A DNA stretch of 35,317 bases, from positions 1 to 35,317 of the IMG/VR virus record IMGVR_UViG_3300046656_000590; one strand, written 5' to 3'. Of the stretch, positions 3,532-16,263 are shown piece after piece. The DNA comes from a virus. The translations under genes and the position numbers were made by a program. The notes below the pieces were generated by a model. That model searched no databases. It had not been told where the DNA came from and saw only the letters and a list, made by a program, of their open reading frames with translations. Position 1 is the first letter of the stretch, and every line of letters starts with the position of its first letter.

Positions 3532-3860
3532 TGACTCAGCTAAATGTAAGAGCCACGATAGACACTCTAAGAAGTAGAGACTCAGCTACGTTTACTGGCA
3601 ATTATCAGACTCTGGGCAGCATTGTCACACATCAGATGCGTGTGATCAAAATTACTAATAATAGTAATGTTTTGGTGACCATATCTATCGATGGCATTAA
3701 CGATAATGAGGTTTTACCAGCCAATTCATTTCTGCTAATTGACTTCTCTGCAAATAGAGAAACGGGAAATGGTTGGGAACTGCCTGCTAACACCCAGTTT
3801 TATGTAAAAGGAGCTGCTGGCGTAGGGCTAGTATATCTTAGCGTTTACTACGCGAACTAA
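3531..3860 (+). CDS. small beta-sandwich-like virion protein (109 aa)
   Basis: Start overlaps the preceding stop. The chain alternates short strands (RVIKITNNSNVLVTISIDG, then LLIDFSANRE, then TQFYVKGAAGVGLVYLSVYY) and has no repeats, so it looks like a single beta-sandwich domain of about 100 residues, comparable in size to a fibre head without a shaft. It lies inside the fibre operon, 15 bases before the next fibre gene, so a virion location is likely. No family recognised. Confidence 0.6.
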   Translation: MTQLNVRATIDTLRSRDSATFTGNYQTLGSIVTHQMRVIKITNNSNVLVTISIDGINDNEVLPANSFLLIDFSANRETGNGWELPANTQFYVKGAAGVGLVYLSVYYAN

Positions 3861-3875
3861 TTCAAAAAGGAAGTC

Positions 3876-4730
3876 ATGAGCCAGGCTGGTGCCCTTAGTA
3901 TAGGTGGAGGTGGAACGACAATTGTCAGCACACTCACTGGGAATTCTGGAGGGCCAGTTTCCCCCACTGGGAACAATATTAATACTATCGGCTCTGGTAG
4001 TATTACTATAGTTGGCTCTCCGGGTACATCCACTCTCACAACACAACTTACAGGTCTTACTAACCACAACGTTCTGGTTGGCTCTGGGACTGACACCATT
4101 ACAAAAGTGGCTCCTGGAACGGCAGGTGTTCCTTTGGTTTCACAAGGAGCTGCTTCCGATCCTATTTTTGGGACTGCCACAGTTCCTGGAGGTGGCACAG
4201 GAACTACTTCATTTAATATAAACGGAGTAGTTGTCTCTGGTAACACGGGAACGGCTCCGTTAAGCGCAGTGACATTAAATAATGGTCAGTTAGCCATTGG
4301 ACAGACTGGTGGAGTTCCAGTAGCCAATACTTTGACAGCCGGAGTGGGCATTTCAATATCAAATGCGCCAGGATCGATCACGATTTCTACGATAGGAAGC
4401 GGATTTACTTGGAATGTCATTGGCGCTTCTCAAACTCTTGCGGTTAACAATGGCTACTTCTGTACTTCTGGGGGAGCTTTATCGCTAGCACTTCCAGCGG
4501 TTTCAGCTGTTGGAGATGCAATTTCAATTGTCTTAGATGGTTCTACCTCCTGGACTGTCACGCAGCCTAACGCAGCGACTAGGATAAGAATAGGTAACCA
4601 ACAGACTACTCTTGGTGTTGGCGGTTCCCTGGCTTCAACGATGGTTGGAGACGCAATTGAGCTGATTTGCGAAACCGCTAATGCTAGATGGGTTGTAATT
4701 GAAATGATTGGAAATATTACGGTGGTATAA
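3876..4730 (+). CDS. short modular fibre protein with distinct tip domain (284 aa)
   Basis: ATG at 3876 with AAGGAAG upstream; the stop overlaps the next start (TAATGG at 4728-4733). Residues 19-115 are a module (STLTGNSGGPVSPTG, TTQLTGLTNHNVLVGSGT, ITKVAP, LVSQGAASDP-FGTA) that recurs almost word for word near the middle of the 6649-8406 protein. The last ~110 residues (FTWNVIGASQTLAVNNGYF to WVVIEMIGNITVV) form a separate beta-rich tip (GYF-T-GG-L-LALPA, GD-ISIVLDG) of a kind seen at fibre ends in many uncultured phages. No virion-attachment segment like that of its neighbours is present; it may dock on another fibre. Confidence 0.7.
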   Translation: MSQAGALSIGGGGTTIVSTLTGNSGGPVSPTGNNINTIGSGSITIVGSPGTSTLTTQLTGLTNHNVLVGSGTDTITKVAPGTAGVPLVSQGAASDPIFGTATVPGGGTGTTSFNINGVVVSGNTGTAPLSAVTLNNGQLAIGQTGGVPVANTLTAGVGISISNAPGSITISTIGSGFTWNVIGASQTLAVNNGYFCTSGGALSLALPAVSAVGDAISIVLDGSTSWTVTQPNAATRIRIGNQQTTLGVGGSLASTMVGDAIELICETANARWVVIEMIGNITVV

Positions 4731-6649
4731 TGGCATCACAAAATGCATTAAATAACATGAGTTTAGCAGCCTTCGGTGTCGGCGCAACCGCAGTCACTGC
4801 TGCTCTTTATGTTAACCTACCTAATCGCATTGGAACTTGGATTACTGGAGCTAACGTTTCTTCAGGATCAGATTCAGACGGTCTATTCATTGACACTTCA
4901 TTTCAGCCCTCAGCAAATATCACTAATGCTGCCTGTATTGGATTATTCCCTACAATGGCGCCTCCTGGCGGGGTGACAATTGCAAACGGCTATGGATTAT
5001 ATGTAGCGAGCGGCACTTTTGCTGGAGCTGGAGCCGTAACCACAGGATACGGAGTCTTTGTTACTGCTCCAACAATTGCTACTACTAATATCACCGCACA
5101 ACTGGATAACATTCGACTCGATTCGAATATCATACAAGCCACAAATGCCAACGGGACTCTAACTGTCCAATCTGCCGGAACGGGAACTCTGAGTGTTGGA
5201 ACCAATGCAACGAACCATCAATCAACATTTGGCTCGACTAGTGGAACTAGTTCAACAACAGTTCAGTCTGGATCTGGTGCCCTAGCGGTGACATCTACTA
5301 ACGGAACTTTGACGATAAATTCTGGAACCGGAGCGCTGGGCATATCCACAGACGCTGCGGCAACTACTGTATCATTTGCTACTGGCGCGGCCGTTAAAGG
5401 CGTGACTTTGGGTTCTACTAACAGCACTTCGGCTACAACTGTTCAGTCAGGCAGCGGTGCTTTGAATGTCACATCCACAAACGGCGCTCTTACGATCAAT
5501 TCTGGGACTGGAGCACTGGGTATATCTACGGATGCTTCGGCCACAACTGTGTCATTTGCGACAGGCGGTGCAGTTAAAACCATAACTCTTGGCTCGACAA
5601 ACTCAACCTCCGCTACAACAGTCCAGTCTGGTTCTGGAGCTCTAAACATTACTTCCACGAACGGTGCCCAAACTCACAACTCCGGCACCGGAGCAATGGG
5701 AATATCAACCGACGCATCTGCTACTACCGTTTCTTTAGCTACTGGAGGCGCAGTTAAGACAGTTACTCTAGGATCTACTAATACTACCAGCACAACTACT
5801 ATTGCATGCGGAACCGGTGGATGCAACGTCGGAACCTCAGCAAATGCTCACGCTACTACTGTAGGATCAACAACCGCCTCTGCTACTACAGTTATTCAGG
5901 CCCCAGCGGGAGGAGTAACCTTAACCGGCGTTGCTGGAACCTCCGTTGCAAACTTGAACGTTGTCACTATAAATACGTCAACAGGACAAATAGGATCGCA
6001 GGCTGCTGGGATCACTACTGTGGCAGTTCAGGTATTCACTTCAACAGGGACCTATACACCAACATCTGGAATGAAATATTGCATTATTGAATGCTTAGGT
6101 GGGGGCGGTGGGGGTGGTGGTGCTGCTGCTACCGCTGGAGGGACTACTTCAGCTGGTGGTGGGGGAGGGGCTGGAGAATATGCCCGAGGAGTTTTTAGCG
6201 CAGCAACTATTGGAGCATCCCAATCTGTGACAATTGGTGCTGCTGGAGCCACAAATAGCGGGGCGGCTGGTGGAAATGGAGGAAATACATCTGTTGGAGC
6301 ATTGATTTCGGCTAACGGAGGAATTGGTGGTCTTACGGCCGCTGCCGGGGCAAATACAGCCCAATCAGGATCTTTAGGAGGAAGCGGAGGCTCTGGAGGA
6401 GATTTTAGAACTCCAGGTCAAAATGGAGGGGGAGGGTTTACAGTTGCTGTTCCTGGTGTGCTATTGGGTGCAGCTGGTGGGAATAGTCAATATGGAGCTG
6501 GAGGCGGAGGTCCTGCTGCAAGCTCTGCTGGAAGTGCCGGATTAGGTTACGGGGCTGGGGGTGGAGGAGGAGTAAATTATACATCTCAGTCAGCGGTCGC
6601 TGGGGGCGGGGGAACAAAGGGTGTAGTAATTGTAACGGAGTTTATTTAA
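4730..6649 (+). CDS. fibre protein with 60-aa repeats and polyglycine-rich C-terminal domain (639 aa)
   Basis: Starts on the stop of the previous gene and ends on the next start (TTTAATGAC). The N-terminal ~130 residues are non-repetitive (NMSLAAFGVGATAVTAAL, GYGLYVASGTF, GYGVFVTAPTI). Then come three 60-residue repeats (SATTVQSGSGAL, TSTNG, INSGTGALGISTDA, TTVSFATGGAVK) and a partial fourth. From about residue 430 a glycine-rich domain begins with VFTSTGTYTPTSGMKY and then runs of eight and five glycines with many GGxGG steps, ending GTKGVVIVTEF. Such a Y-x-P-x-G-x opening before GGGG runs is typical of the glycine-rich tip family seen in phage adhesins, where glycines may form stacked polyglycine helices. 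A host-binding tip is the likely role. Confidence 0.75.
   Translation: MASQNALNNMSLAAFGVGATAVTAALYVNLPNRIGTWITGANVSSGSDSDGLFIDTSFQPSANITNAACIGLFPTMAPPGGVTIANGYGLYVASGTFAGAGAVTTGYGVFVTAPTIATTNITAQLDNIRLDSNIIQATNANGTLTVQSAGTGTLSVGTNATNHQSTFGSTSGTSSTTVQSGSGALAVTSTNGTLTINSGTGALGISTDAAATTVSFATGAAVKGVTLGSTNSTSATTVQSGSGALNVTSTNGALTINSGTGALGISTDASATTVSFATGGAVKTITLGSTNSTSATTVQSGSGALNITSTNGAQTHNSGTGAMGISTDASATTVSLATGGAVKTVTLGSTNTTSTTTIACGTGGCNVGTSANAHATTVGSTTASATTVIQAPAGGVTLTGVAGTSVANLNVVTINTSTGQIGSQAAGITTVAVQVFTSTGTYTPTSGMKYCIIECLGGGGGGGGAAATAGGTTSAGGGGGAGEYARGVFSAATIGASQSVTIGAAGATNSGAAGGNGGNTSVGALISANGGIGGLTAAAGANTAQSGSLGGSGGSGGDFRTPGQNGGGGFTVAVPGVLLGAAGGNSQYGAGGGGPAASSAGSAGLGYGAGGGGGVNYTSQSAVAGGGGTKGVVIVTEFI
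5231..5824. repeat. three 180-bp coding repeats plus a partial fourth
   Basis: Units start at 5231, 5411, 5591 and 5771, exactly 180 bp (60 codons) apart. The encoded residues are nearly identical between units while codons differ at many third positions, so the protein repeat, not the DNA, is conserved. The last unit breaks off after about 18 codons and becomes the ACGTGGCNVG segment. Confidence 0.85.
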
Positions 6650-10193: not shown

Positions 10194-10617
10194 AAAACCT
10201 CTCCGTTACATTTTTAACTGAAATGACGGTTCTAGGATGCTCTGTGTAACCCTTTTTGGCAAATATGCTAATTACTTGGGAGTCATCTAAAAAGACGATT
10301 CCTTTTAAACAGTCTTCATAAAACTTACATAGATTGCTTACATCAGGCCGCTTAAGATGATGGATTTCCCCTGCAAGCATCTTTGCTTGTTTTTTTTTGG
10401 AAGTTGCGACGGGAATCGGGAAGAAAAAATCATAATGAACTTCAACTGCTTCGTTGGTTATAAGGAACTCTGTTGGGATCTGATTTCGAATGAACCACTG
10501 TGTGGCTTCTTTTTCTTTATAACGAGGGTTAAATGACCTTCGAGAGCTTACGTAGGGTGCTTTGAATGGAATTGGAGTGCCTGATAAAACGATCTTAATC
10601 ATGAATGAATCACTCAT
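10171..10617 (-). CDS. rusA: RusA-family Holliday junction resolvase
   Basis: A 148-residue protein with the RusA order: an N-terminal strand carrying SGTPIPFKAP, a middle F-F-PIP segment followed by a Lys-rich helix, then HHLKRPDVSNLCKFYEDCL and IVFLDDSQV. Asp92 (RPD), with Asp111/112 in LDDSQ, correspond to the acidic metal-binding residues of RusA. RusA dimers cut four-way DNA junctions made during recombination and replication, which fits the nuclease/RecT pair on the facing operon. The ATG at 10617 overlaps the preceding stop (ATGA); the ATG five codons later (MIKIVLSG) is an alternative start. Confidence 0.9.
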   Translation of the reverse strand: MSDSFMIKIVLSGTPIPFKAPYVSSRRSFNPRYKEKEATQWFIRNQIPTEFLITNEAVEVHYDFFFPIPVATSKKKQAKMLAGEIHHLKRPDVSNLCKFYEDCLKGIVFLDDSQVISIFAKKGYTEHPRTVISVKNVTERFYGERNAL

Positions 10618-10924
10618 CGAGGAACATGGTGGGATTACAGTCGATGCTTAGAAGCTGTTTGATGACTTTTTCGTTGCGTTTGACGAATTTGTAAAGACCA
10701 ATGCCAGCAGTTAATCCAAATGACGTTTTGTCGGGAGGGCCAGGTCTTTTCTTCATTTCATAGATTAATTCTTCCAGGCACTCGGCCATTGCGACCAATT
10801 CCGCAATCGCCACAGTTACTTTCTCTGAGTGGACCTTCTCAATGAGTCCTTGAAGCAATTCGTTAATGTCAGCAATGTCATCCGGAGTGGAATCAGAAAT
10901 TCTAAGAAAATCTTCAAGTCCCAA
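10610..10924 (-). CDS. unknown helical protein (104 aa, TTG start)
   Basis: The frame begins at a TTG at 10924 inside the end of the HTH gene (overlap 11 bases), so translation is probably coupled; no ATG gives a sensible start until much later. The protein is helical and acidic at the N-terminus (DSTPDDIADINELLQGL, MAECLEELIYEM), with a more basic, glycine-containing second half (SFGLTAGIGLYKFVKRN). No family recognised. Confidence 0.55.
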   Translation of the reverse strand: MGLEDFLRISDSTPDDIADINELLQGLIEKVHSEKVTVAIAELVAMAECLEELIYEMKKRPGPPDKTSFGLTAGIGLYKFVKRNEKVIKQLLSIDCNPTMFLDE

Positions 10925-11225: not shown

Positions 11226-11801
11226 ATGGAAGACATCACAGAAGGGTACGTCAGGGTGAGCGATATTTTGAGCATATTTCAGTCTTATGCCCATGTACCG
11301 AGGGCCCAACTAAAAAAAGCCCAAGACATAGGTACAGACATTCACGCGGCGATTGAGGCCTTTTATAAAGATGAATTTACTCCTCTAGATAAGAAAAAAA
11401 ATCCCTATTTTGAGTCTTTCCTAAAATGGAACGACAGACTCCTTCCAGAACCTGTTCTTATAGAAAAGCGTTTATATGGCGAAGAATTGATGATCACTGG
11501 TCGAATCGACCTTTTAGTCCAGAGTGGGGGCAAGAGCGTAATAGTGGACTTTAAAACGGGTTCTTGGGCCCATCCAGAGATTTGGCGACTTCAGGGTGCC
11601 TTTTATAGATATCTCGTGGCCACATCGGGGATAGCCTTCCCAGATGTTTTTATCTTCGTCCAGCTACAAAAAGATGGCTCTTATCCCAATATCCATGAAT
11701 TCATCTATCGGGATAGAGACTGGAATGTATGCTTGTCAGCCTTAGAGTGCTATAAATTCTTTAAAAACGTGCCTGTTGACTTAAATTCCCTGCTAATTTA
11801 A
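11226..11801 (+). CDS. RecB-like PD-(D/E)XK exonuclease (191 aa)
   Basis: ATG at 11226 with GAGG five bases upstream. The nuclease core is clear: GTDIHAAIE (His40), GRIDLL with Asp95, VIVDFKTG with Asp108 and Lys110, then QGAFYRY giving the Q-x-x-x-Y motif (Gln123, Tyr127). These are the metal-binding and DNA-contact residues of the RecB/Cas4/lambda-exonuclease superfamily. The likely role is 5'-3' resection that makes single strands for the RecT-like annealase downstream, as in phage Red/RecET systems. At 191 residues it is short and has no extra domains. Opens the plus-strand recombination operon. Confidence 0.85.
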   Translation: MEDITEGYVRVSDILSIFQSYAHVPRAQLKKAQDIGTDIHAAIEAFYKDEFTPLDKKKNPYFESFLKWNDRLLPEPVLIEKRLYGEELMITGRIDLLVQSGGKSVIVDFKTGSWAHPEIWRLQGAFYRYLVATSGIAFPDVFIFVQLQKDGSYPNIHEFIYRDRDWNVCLSALECYKFFKNVPVDLNSLLI

Positions 11802-11815
11802 TGTTATAGGAAACA

Positions 11816-11843
11816 GAAAAAAACCCCCGCTGACAACGGGGGT
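11816..11843 (-). terminator. terminator-type hairpin, minus strand
   Basis: ACCCCCG (11823-11829) and CGGGGGT (11837-11843) form a 7-bp stem with a CTGACAA loop. On the minus strand it is followed by a run of T (complement of A at 11817-11823). It lies in the plus operon between the nuclease and 11865 genes, so it would stop antisense transcription running in from the 13-16 kb minus operon. On the plus strand it has no T tail and may act only as an RNA structure. Confidence 0.6.
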
Positions 11844-11864
11844 AAGCAAAAAATGGAGTGAAAA

Positions 11865-12050
11865 ATGCTAGAATACACGAATGATAGCCATCAGAACTTA
11901 AATATGCAACAACTCTGGAACGACCTCCAGTACATCGACACTCAAATACACAACTTAAAATCAGACATAAAATACGTCATGGTTTTGATTGCCAGAATGG
12001 AATCAGAGATCGATTTTGCCAAGAAGGAGATGGAATCATGCGTTCATTAG
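11865..12050 (+). CDS. small coiled-coil protein (61 aa)
   Basis: ATG at 11865 with GGAG upstream. After a short polar start the chain is one long helix with heptad-like I/L/M spacing (LQYIDTQIHNLKSDI, VMVLIARMESEIDFAKKEM). It overlaps the next gene by 13 bases. No family recognised; the position between nuclease and RecT suggests an accessory recombination or replication protein. Confidence 0.55.
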   Translation: MLEYTNDSHQNLNMQQLWNDLQYIDTQIHNLKSDIKYVMVLIARMESEIDFAKKEMESCVH

Positions 12051-12238
12051 ACAAAAAAGTGCACTGGACTTCTGACAAATCTTGCACCTGGCAGACTAAT
12101 TATGACCATATGGAGCCAAGAACTGAACAAGAAGACAGGAAAAGACGCATCCTTGCTCTTCGATGGGAGTTGAACATTGACCCCGAGGCACATTACACAC
12201 TGGAAGAGCTTGAGGAGATGTACCATGAGCAAGACTGA
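12038..12238 (+). CDS. unknown small protein upstream of RecT (66 aa)
   Basis: ATG at 12038 follows AAGGAGATGG, overlaps the preceding gene, and its own end overlaps the RecT start by 14 bases. The C-terminal half is a charged helix (EQEDRKRRILALRWEL, then YTLEELEEMYHEQD). The ribosome site of RecT (GAGGAG) is inside its last codons, so the three genes are translated as a chain. Function unknown. Confidence 0.55.
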   Translation: MRSLDKKVHWTSDKSCTWQTNYDHMEPRTEQEDRKRRILALRWELNIDPEAHYTLEELEEMYHEQD

Positions 12239-13037
12239 AACTATGTTGATCCCTACCCAAGAGGAGCTAAACGTCTATCAAACGATGGCGAAGACCGCCG
12301 GTCAAAGCCAGCTATTTGCAAATATAGGGGGAGAGGCCAGACTTTTAAGTATTATGCTCATGGCCAGAGAATTGGGCCTGCCTCCAATGCAAGCACTGAT
12401 GGGCGGAATGAACGTTATACAAGGGAAGGAAACTAAGGTAGAGCTCTCTCCTCGTCTCATGAATAGCATGATCAGAAAAGCTGGTCACAAGATAGAGATA
12501 CTGGAGTCTACCGAGCAATTATGTAAGTTAAAAGGGAATAGACATGACACTAAAGAAGAGTATGTTTGCGTTTTTACTATCGACGATGCTCGTAGGGCTG
12601 GTTTGGTTCGTGGCGGAGGTGGCTGGGAGAAGTTTGCTTCTGACATGCTGTTTGCTAGGTGCCTTAGCCGACTTGCTCGCCGCCTGTTCGCTGACGTTAT
12701 TAGCACTGCATATGTGGAAGGGGAAATAGATCGCGTTGATACCTATGAAAAGGTAGAGGCATATCTACCTCCAGAAGTTGCTGAAGTTATCCCAGAAAAG
12801 CCTACAGAAATGACAATCGAGCAGTTCAAAGAAAAGCTTAGAGAGACAGTTGGGATGAATTATGAGCTTATCGATCTTCTTGAATACCTAGATCATTTGG
12901 CAACAGAGAGTGGTATTTCAGTTGCTAAGATCATGGGACAAGCCATTCAGTCGTCTAGAGTAGAAAGATTTTGTAAGTCATGGAAACGATGGTGGGAAAA
13001 GAAACAGGCCTCTATAGAAGAGGTTAGCAAACTTTAA
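12225..13037 (+). CDS. recT: RecT-like single-strand annealing recombinase (270 aa)
   Basis: I chose the ATG at 12225 (MSKTETML), eight bases after GAGGAG; the frame extends upstream to 12177 without a ribosome site. The fold-defining part runs from ARLLSIMLMARELGLPP-QAL through GKETKVELSPRLMNSMIRKAGHKI to EEYVCVFTIDDARRAGLV and WEKFASDMLFARCLSRLARRLF-DVI. The order of a helix with ARELGLPP, a P-x-L-M helix, beta hairpins and a basic A-R-x-L-x-R helix fits phage RecT-type annealases. The C-terminal third is less conserved and helical. With the nuclease it would repair and concatenate phage DNA. Confidence 0.8.
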   Translation: MSKTETMLIPTQEELNVYQTMAKTAGQSQLFANIGGEARLLSIMLMARELGLPPMQALMGGMNVIQGKETKVELSPRLMNSMIRKAGHKIEILESTEQLCKLKGNRHDTKEEYVCVFTIDDARRAGLVRGGGGWEKFASDMLFARCLSRLARRLFADVISTAYVEGEIDRVDTYEKVEAYLPPEVAEVIPEKPTEMTIEQFKEKLRETVGMNYELIDLLEYLDHLATESGISVAKIMGQAIQSSRVERFCKSWKRWWEKKQASIEEVSKL

Positions 13038-15318: not shown

Positions 15319-16101
15319 CTAAGAACCTCTGTTGAACCATCTCTTGGTTTGCTCAATCCATTCGGAGTCAGGGATATCGTAATCTATTGACCTATAGAAG
15401 TTTACGCAAGAGAATTCTACGCCGTCCCTCTTGGCGCTCACAAGATCCCCGTTTATTTTCTTCCCATCAAACCTCTTTGCCTGCAAGCGATGGCTATCCG
15501 TGCGAGTCTCCCTTTCTTTCGCAAACCCGTTAGAATTGCGATGTTCTTGCATACAGGTCTCAAGATAGCCCTGGATCCTGATTGTTGGGTTTTTGAGCCT
15601 TTCTAAGCATCCCCAAGCATGCTCAAACTCTTCATTTGTCCAATTAGAAGAAATCCTCCTCTTCCAATCATCTTTCTGTAAAGGTGGGGACGGTTCTCTT
15701 TTGGAGGAGGAAGGAGGAGGACTCTTTTCTTTTTTCTCTTCTTTGTTCTCTGGGTGACAGTTTTGACACCCGAGGGGTGACATTTTTGTCACCGGGGGGG
15801 TGTCAAATTTGTCATGGTATGTTTGAACGAAAGACTTTATGCTTCTGAGCCTTCCGTCAAAAGTTTCATACCTAATAAAGCCTAAATTCTTGAGTTTTGC
15901 TAGCCCTCTTTGAAGGGTGCGCTCGTTTATGTTGAAAAACTTTTGAAGGTATGCGTTTGATGCTGTACATCCATTTTCGGGATGATCAAGGCTGTCGATT
16001 TCGGCCCAAAGCATTTTTTCAAAGCAGGTTAGCTCCTTATGAAGCCAAATTTCTCGTGGTATCCAGATGCCTTTAAAATTTCTTGGAAGTTCGTCGCTCA
16101 T
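15319..16101 (-). CDS. lambda O-like replication initiator with winged helix (260 aa)
   Basis: Residues about 10-90 form a winged helix-turn-helix (GIWIPREIWLHKELTCFEK, DSLDHPENGCTASNAYL, NERTLQRGLAKLKNLGFI, then the wing RYETFDGRLRSI), typical of phage and plasmid initiators. A low-complexity linker follows (about 110-145: ENKEEKKEK, SPPPSSSKREPSPP), and then a C-terminal part of unclear fold. The linker's DNA contains the three iterons and the purine-rich tract annotated as an origin, the same layout as lambda O. The start is at 16101 (MSDELPRNF), with AGGAG about 10 bases upstream. It leads the minus-strand replication operon. No helicase or loader gene is visible downstream, so host DnaB loading would need another partner. 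Confidence 0.8.
   Translation of the reverse strand: MSDELPRNFKGIWIPREIWLHKELTCFEKMLWAEIDSLDHPENGCTASNAYLQKFFNINERTLQRGLAKLKNLGFIRYETFDGRLRSIKSFVQTYHDKFDTPPVTKMSPLGCQNCHPENKEEKKEKSPPPSSSKREPSPPLQKDDWKRRISSNWTNEEFEHAWGCLERLKNPTIRIQGYLETCMQEHRNSNGFAKERETRTDSHRLQAKRFDGKKINGDLVSAKRDGVEFSCVNFYRSIDYDIPDSEWIEQTKRWFNRGS
15700..15820. other. candidate replication origin: three 23-bp-period iterons plus purine/pyrimidine tract
   Basis: Repeats begin at 15752, 15775 and 15798, exactly 23 bp apart. They read GGGTGACAGTTTTGACAC, GGGTGACATTTTTGTCAC and GGGTGTCAAATTTGTCAT. The middle one is a perfect dyad (GGTGACA, TTTT, TGTCACC). Next to them at about 15700-15751 is a polypyrimidine stretch (purine-rich on the coding strand). 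Reading along the initiator gene, iterons come first and the purine-rich tract after, the same order as in the lambda O gene. The call rests on structure and location. Confidence 0.7.
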
Positions 16102-16138
16102 GAGATTCTCCTATTGGTTAGGAGCCCTCACGCGGTGG

Positions 16139-16168
16139 TTGACATTAGATCAAAAAAAGAGTTAGGAT
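16139..16168 (+). promoter_or_regulatory. promoter candidate with consensus -35
   Basis: TTGACA at 16139-16144, an 18-base spacer, then TAGGAT at 16163-16168. It points away from the initiator gene, whose start is at 16101 on the other strand. The expected start of RNA (about 16175) falls in the dyad that follows. No good -10 matches a minus-strand promoter in the same stretch. Confidence 0.5.
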
Positions 16169-16173
16169 TGATT

Positions 16174-16193
16174 TTTACAGTCAATGCTGTAAA
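16174..16193. promoter_or_regulatory. operator-like dyad TTTACAG-N6-CTGTAAA
   Basis: Perfect 7-bp inverted repeat with a TCAATG spacer, immediately after the -10 of the plus promoter. Its position at the start site makes it a good repressor site; as RNA it would also be the first hairpin of the transcript. Confidence 0.55.
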
Positions 16194-16200
16194 CTGGTCC

Positions 16201-16224
16201 TGTTCCGCAAAGAACGTTTTTTTT
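16201..16224 (+). terminator. terminator-like hairpin with T8 tail
   Basis: TGTTC (16201-16205) and GAACG (16212-16216) pair around CGCAAA, followed by eight T (16217-16224). The stem is short (5 bp including one wobble) but the T run is long. It lies only about 30-50 bases after the promoter at 16139-16168. Confidence 0.5.
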
Positions 16225-16235
16225 GATCTGAATGT

Positions 16236-16263
16236 CCCCCGTTCACCGCGGGGGCTTCTCTTT
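16236..16263 (+). terminator. second terminator-like hairpin
   Basis: CCCCCG (16236-16241) and CGGGGG (16249-16254) around TTCACCG, followed by the T-rich CTTCTCTTT. GC-rich stem, moderate tail. With the hairpin at 16201 it makes a tandem pair downstream of one promoter and ahead of the late genes. Confidence 0.55.

Follow-up and report, generated by a model that had tools for sequence, protein, structure and literature searches.

A probable lambda-type replication origin embedded in a winged-helix initiator gene of an IMG/VR virus

In lambdoid phages the initiator O binds iterons that lie inside gene O and adjoin an AT-rich region, and in a plasmid derived from phage P27 both of the iterons tested by mutation were required for replication (PMC7466680). 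The annotated lambda iterons inside gene O are 20, 24 and 23 bp apart. The plasmid pSK41 has its binding sites centrally in rep, where the origin encodes a linker that is dispensable for the protein, and the C-terminal domain of RepA_N initiators contacts a host replication protein (PMC5703833). In pPR9, a block of about 500 bp comprising an HTH_36-type N-terminal domain and an origin replaced that of pSK41; the pPR9 mini-replicon is functional, and compatible with pSK41 (PMC5703833). The linker of the pPR9 rep gene contains 45-bp (2 x 22.5) repeats. The embedded-origin design is already known from lambda O and the RepA_N plasmids, and the locus described here is probably a further member.

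We analyzed a 35,317-bp IMG/VR virus record, referred to below as the window, which is the whole stretch of DNA under analysis. One gene on its minus strand contains three repeats that start at 15752, 15775 and 15798, with a period of exactly 23 bp. The features of the locus are as follows; dyads are given without strand and then as read on the gene strand.

15319..16101, minus strand: initiator gene, 260 amino acids (HTH_36, 3.5e-6; PHROG_270, 8.7e-13)
15832..16074, minus strand: N-terminal winged-helix domain, approximately residues 10-90 (AlphaFold2, block-mean pLDDT 87-97)
15886..15924, minus strand: putative recognition helix, residues 60-72 (ERTLQRGLAKLKN), with R61 and R65 (AlphaFold2 helix; covariation with the half-site)
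15799..15816: dyad 1, the first along the gene, GGTGTCAAATTTGTCATG; gene strand CATGACAAATTTGACACC
15776..15793: dyad 2, GGTGACATTTTTGTCACC; gene strand GGTGACAAAAATGTCACC; perfect arms
15753..15770: dyad 3, GGTGACAGTTTTGACACC; gene strand GGTGTCAAAACTGTCACC
15722..15751, gene strand: A-rich purine run of 30 nt, putative unwinding element, AGAGAACAAAGAAGAGAAAAAAGAAAAGAG
15703..15721, gene strand: pyrimidine run, after the purine run
15322..15681, minus strand: C-terminal region, residues 141-260, helical in a low-confidence model; homologue found in no relative of the set

Each dyad is 18 bp long, and all three fit one pattern, TGWCA-N4-TGWCA; in the second (15776-15793) a 4-nt centre is flanked by two perfect 7-nt arms. 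The coordinates and the 23-bp period reported in the initial annotation, its description of the middle repeat as a perfect dyad, and the purine/pyrimidine tract that it saw adjoining the repeats (15722-15751 and 15703-15721) were all recovered here. It had also named GC skew as a check, and in this respect the outcome was negative, as the skew has no clear turning point at the array and does not place the origin. The pattern occurs four times in the window versus 0.15 occurrences expected, and none of 100 shuffles reaches four. The fourth dyad is isolated, at 10867-10880, within an ORF on the minus strand (10610-10924).

The dyads correspond to codons 96-117, which places the array about 280 nt into the gene, in the linker between the DNA-binding and C-terminal domains, as in lambda O-type initiators. 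The repeat score of the gene is 24.6, the best score among 3,000 synonymous recodings with the window's codon usage is 17.0, and three dyads arise in none of these recodings. A 23-bp step is no whole number of codons, so each copy is translated in a frame of its own (HDKFDTP, PVTKMSP and GCQNCHP). The third dyad is in the only frame in which TGACA would give a TGA stop, and both of its halves read TGTCA; only one of the 146 dyads counted in the TGWCA class, among the matches listed, is in the potential-stop frame, which is that of the window's dyad 3. The linker is disordered and of low complexity, and such repeats might be a by-product of slippage or of peptide-level repetition without any function in the DNA. 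However, a by-product would hardly exceed all of the synonymous recodings, nor would it be expected to run through three frames at a period that is not a codon multiple.

The initiator protein matches HTH_36 in Pfam and PHROG_270, "replication initiation protein", at the values listed above, and by domain as well as by PHROG it falls within the HTH_36/PHROG_270 class of phage initiators. PHROG_2880 and PHROG_186 also match, and the O-like PHROGs 678, 345 and 391 match more weakly (1e-5 to 7e-4). An AlphaFold2 model built from a 48-row alignment consists of a confident winged helix, then a disordered linker holding the repeats, then helices of low confidence. The matches and the model together uphold the original placement of the repeats in the low-complexity linker of a winged-helix initiator gene. 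A search of the PDB by sequence with the initiator returned nothing relevant. Foldseek against the PDB gave weak matches (best E 0.015), and the top ones include 5kbj, 4pql and 4pt7, which carry titles of a Rep-DNA complex or an initiator and which we take to be RepA_N plasmid Rep proteins.

Along the gene the dyads come first, followed on their 3' side by the A-rich purine run and then by the pyrimidine run. The 15-mer AGAAAAAAGAAAAGA (15723-15737) occurs in the lambda O gene too, immediately 3' to the iterons there; as a low-complexity match it would, taken alone, be weak evidence. The purine and pyrimidine blocks (15703-15742) can pair with each other over 18 pairs, and this tract might fold into a hairpin next to the putative origin.

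In order to determine whether the array is conserved, we collected relatives in two ways. A scan of IMG/VR with the window's initiator as a single protein returned zero relatives; an alignment query did recover them. The first, protein-selected sample was picked by protein patterns that exclude the recognition helix, and comprised 60 non-redundant genes, later enlarged to 91 non-redundant relatives. A significant in-gene array at lag 22 or 23 is present in 47 of the 60 genes, with mean scores of 14.5 (lag 22) and 11.8 (lag 23) versus about 4.5 in codon shuffles; echoes appear at lags 44 and 46, nothing appears at 20 or 25, and codon-shuffled sequence has no lag peak. In the enlarged sample, 72 of 91 relatives carry a significant array (33 at lag 22, 27 at 23, seven at 21 and three at 24), which means 60 at 22 or 23 bp; 19 of the 91 have no significant array and 31 have none at 22 or 23 bp. 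The arrays occupy the same place in the gene as the window's, and since neither 22 nor 23 is divisible by three, they are not peptide repeats. The initial annotation had proposed that the period should persist in relatives despite change in the protein, and this expectation was borne out. Peaks at lags 12 and 15, both codon multiples, come from AT-rich repeats in the stretch next to the array and were rejected as iterons. No in-gene array was found in the rep genes of Leptospira LE1 and lcp3, the latter of which alone supports replication in shuttle vectors (PMC4338851).

The sequence of the iterons differs widely between relatives. Among the first 80 protein-selected relatives, TGWCA dyads form the linker array only in L154 (the contig of L024), and most protein-selected genes bear an array of another sequence. 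Repeat centres tend to be A-rich on the coding strand (mean 71% A, in a register chosen partly for A-richness). Palindromy is in modest excess, at 4.43 of 6 versus 3.98 in a permuted-consensus null, and because this average is only modestly above the null the window's dyads are cleaner than many. The second, motif-selected sample was drawn with the exact GGTGACAWWWWTGTCACC (27 loci) and with a two-dyad pattern (at least 120 stretches); some of its matches are unrelated repeat proteins, and a 9-bp spacing class arises where adjoining half-sites are read in overlap. We built up a winged-helix profile from the window's protein and applied it to the motif loci and the window, which gave 59 unique domains among the matches listed. 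For 52 of these 59, dyads lie downstream in the same ORF, the first at a median of 26 codons past the domain, and the spacings peak at 22-24, again among the matches listed.

The neighbor of the array is conserved as well. AT content directly 3' of the array is 0.77 versus 0.60, in 46 of 47 genes, and the 5' side has no such rise; the 3' AT-rich stretch is found in 64 of 70 genes of the larger protein-selected set (p=1.4e-11) and in 42 of 48 of the motif sample, among the matches listed. The rise spans 40-60 nt (A about 0.5) and then drops back. These observations bear on another possible role of the dyads, namely that they are operators through which the protein represses or times the transcription of its own gene, the origin being elsewhere. 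Winged-helix domains are often transcriptional regulators, the dyads are operator-like, and a bound protein would block transcription through the gene. However, the array lies well inside the gene and not at a promoter, this place is kept in relatives, an AT-rich stretch follows, and the layout is that of lambda and pSK41, where the in-gene sites are the origin. We therefore regard operators without an origin as improbable, though the two roles may coexist.

We then compared half-sites with the winged-helix domains. Across 47 arrays the partial Mantel correlation between half-site distance and recognition-helix distance, controlling for the rest of the domain, is 0.32 (permutation p=0.0005), and across 70 arrays it is 0.27 (permutation p=0.0005), with the qualification that Mantel tests remove phylogeny only partly. 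In a sliding-block scan the correlation has its maximum at the recognition helix, and blocks that do not extend into the helix give 0.16 or less. Among pairs with distant domains, those with a similar helix have slightly closer half-sites (0.46 vs 0.54; 13 pairs). As judged from these sequence comparisons, the repeat sequence covaries with the recognition helix and hardly with the remaining domain, which also argues against a mere linker by-product, an explanation to which we give very little credence. At the level of residues, arginine or lysine stands at both R61- and R65-equivalent positions in 57 of 59 TGWCA-class domains among the matches listed, a count that the selecting profile may inflate by favoring the R-R signature. 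In the protein-selected set the same combination is present in five of 70, including the window and L154.

Period and place are kept while the in-gene site sequence changes with the helix, and this is the broader and more interesting result. It suggests that each gene holds a cassette of a recognition helix and in-gene iterons spaced 22-24 bp, changing together by a simple code in which two basic residues four apart (the R61/R65 equivalents) go with TGACA half-sites. We lean slightly towards this reading, cassette and code taken jointly; if it is true, there would be many origin specificities compatible with one another, each of which could be exchanged as a single segment of approximately 350-500 bp. 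We found no survey of helix/iteron covariation in open-licence PMC papers. Type specificity has long been known in lambdoid phages, and here it becomes testable across a large family, whose members also make up a natural data set on the joint evolution of a winged helix with the DNA it reads. Swapping one such segment may also be how hybrid initiators such as pPR9 escape incompatibility.

The resemblance to lambda O extends over most of the locus. In both, inverted-repeat iterons with an A-rich centre lie in the initiator gene downstream of the region coding for the N-terminal domain, and an AT-rich purine tract adjoins them on the 3' side along the gene. The lambda-like order recognized in the initial annotation is supported in each of its elements (winged helix, iterons in the linker, A-rich purine tract, C-terminal region). 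The differences are that the window's iteron sequence is not that of lambda, that Pfam assigns lambda O to Phage_rep_O (PF04492) and the window protein to HTH_36 only, that the window's C-terminus is not recognizably O-like and that no P-like loader was recognized. The C-terminal region of the window protein has detectable homology neither to lambda O nor to any relative of the set. Together with the separate Pfam assignments, this could point to an embedded origin whose architecture evolved separately, in an initiator of other ancestry than lambda O, close to the initial suggestion of the same design reached with a different initiator.

However, the C-terminal domains of nine relatives (L154-L157, L161, L167, L168, L176 and L188) match that of lambda O (best BLASTP 5.5e-9; profile 2.3e-11), and L154 matches PHROG_391, "O-like", at 2.2e-23 over residues 34-271. 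The window shares its N-terminal domain with these relatives, of which L154, L155 and L156 are the nearest, and does not share their O-like C-terminal domain; the nearest relatives combine an N-terminal domain of the window's type with a C-terminal domain homologous to that of lambda O. Given these domains and the O-like PHROG matches of the window protein itself, it looks likelier that initiators of one kind have diverged and swapped domains than that the design was invented independently. Strict convergence with lambda O is disfavored by the C-terminal homology of L154-L156, and we consider an independent origin unlikely. Of the initial suggestion, the part that stands is that the window's C-terminus matches nothing found; a wholly different initiator is not what its relatives indicate.

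The RepA_N initiators offer a second comparison. As in pSK41, the window combines a winged-helix N-terminal domain with putative binding sites for it in the centre of the gene and a linker encoded by the putative origin, and the Rep-titled PDB entries named above are among the top fold matches; as in pPR9, an HTH_36-type N-terminal domain would go with its own origin. Unlike these proteins, the window protein has no RepA_N domain in Pfam, its fold matches are weak and its C-terminal part shows no relation that we could find. Cultured phages offer a third comparison. The PHROG_270/2880-type initiators of Pseudomonas phages HU1 and Skulduggery, Oceanospirillum phage GJ44 and Staphylococcus phage 77 are homologous in the N-terminal domain, and their genes carry arrays spaced 20-24 bp with iteron sequences other than the window's. 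A further difference is that in HU1, Skulduggery and GJ44 the next gene downstream encodes a helicase, a loader or an ATPase. The arrays of these three (L149, L150 and L151 in our set) are spaced 20-23 bp and are not annotated as origins in their records.

An embedded lambda-type origin is by far the best reading of the array, and we consider it very probable that the repeats are iterons of such an origin lying in the gene of its own initiator. Dimers of the N-terminal winged-helix domain would bind each 18-bp dyad, the recognition helix reading the arms on either side of the A-rich centre. The 23-bp period would set successive dimers approximately two helical turns apart and allow side-by-side assembly, and strain from the assembled dimers could melt the adjoining A-rich run on the 3' side of the array. 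The C-terminal part, held on a flexible linker encoded by the origin, would then recruit the replicative helicase of host or phage, either directly or via a loader. If this is correct, the origin and binding motif of many uncultured phages could be predicted from the initiator gene alone.

No helicase-loader gene was recognized among the window genes scanned, and several small neighbors have no assigned function. In L161 a DnaC-like helicase-loader gene (3849-4376) overlaps the end of the initiator gene, and in L155 a gene for a J-domain (DnaJ) protein (4266-4781) lies just after the O-like initiator gene; lambda replication needs host DnaJ. Just upstream of the window's initiator gene, inverted repeats and a terminator-like hairpin (16129-16260) are possibly a regulatory or terminator region. 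The plus strand at 11226-13037 encodes a PD-(D/E)XK exonuclease and a RecT-like annealing protein, and a RusA resolvase gene is found nearby on the minus strand.
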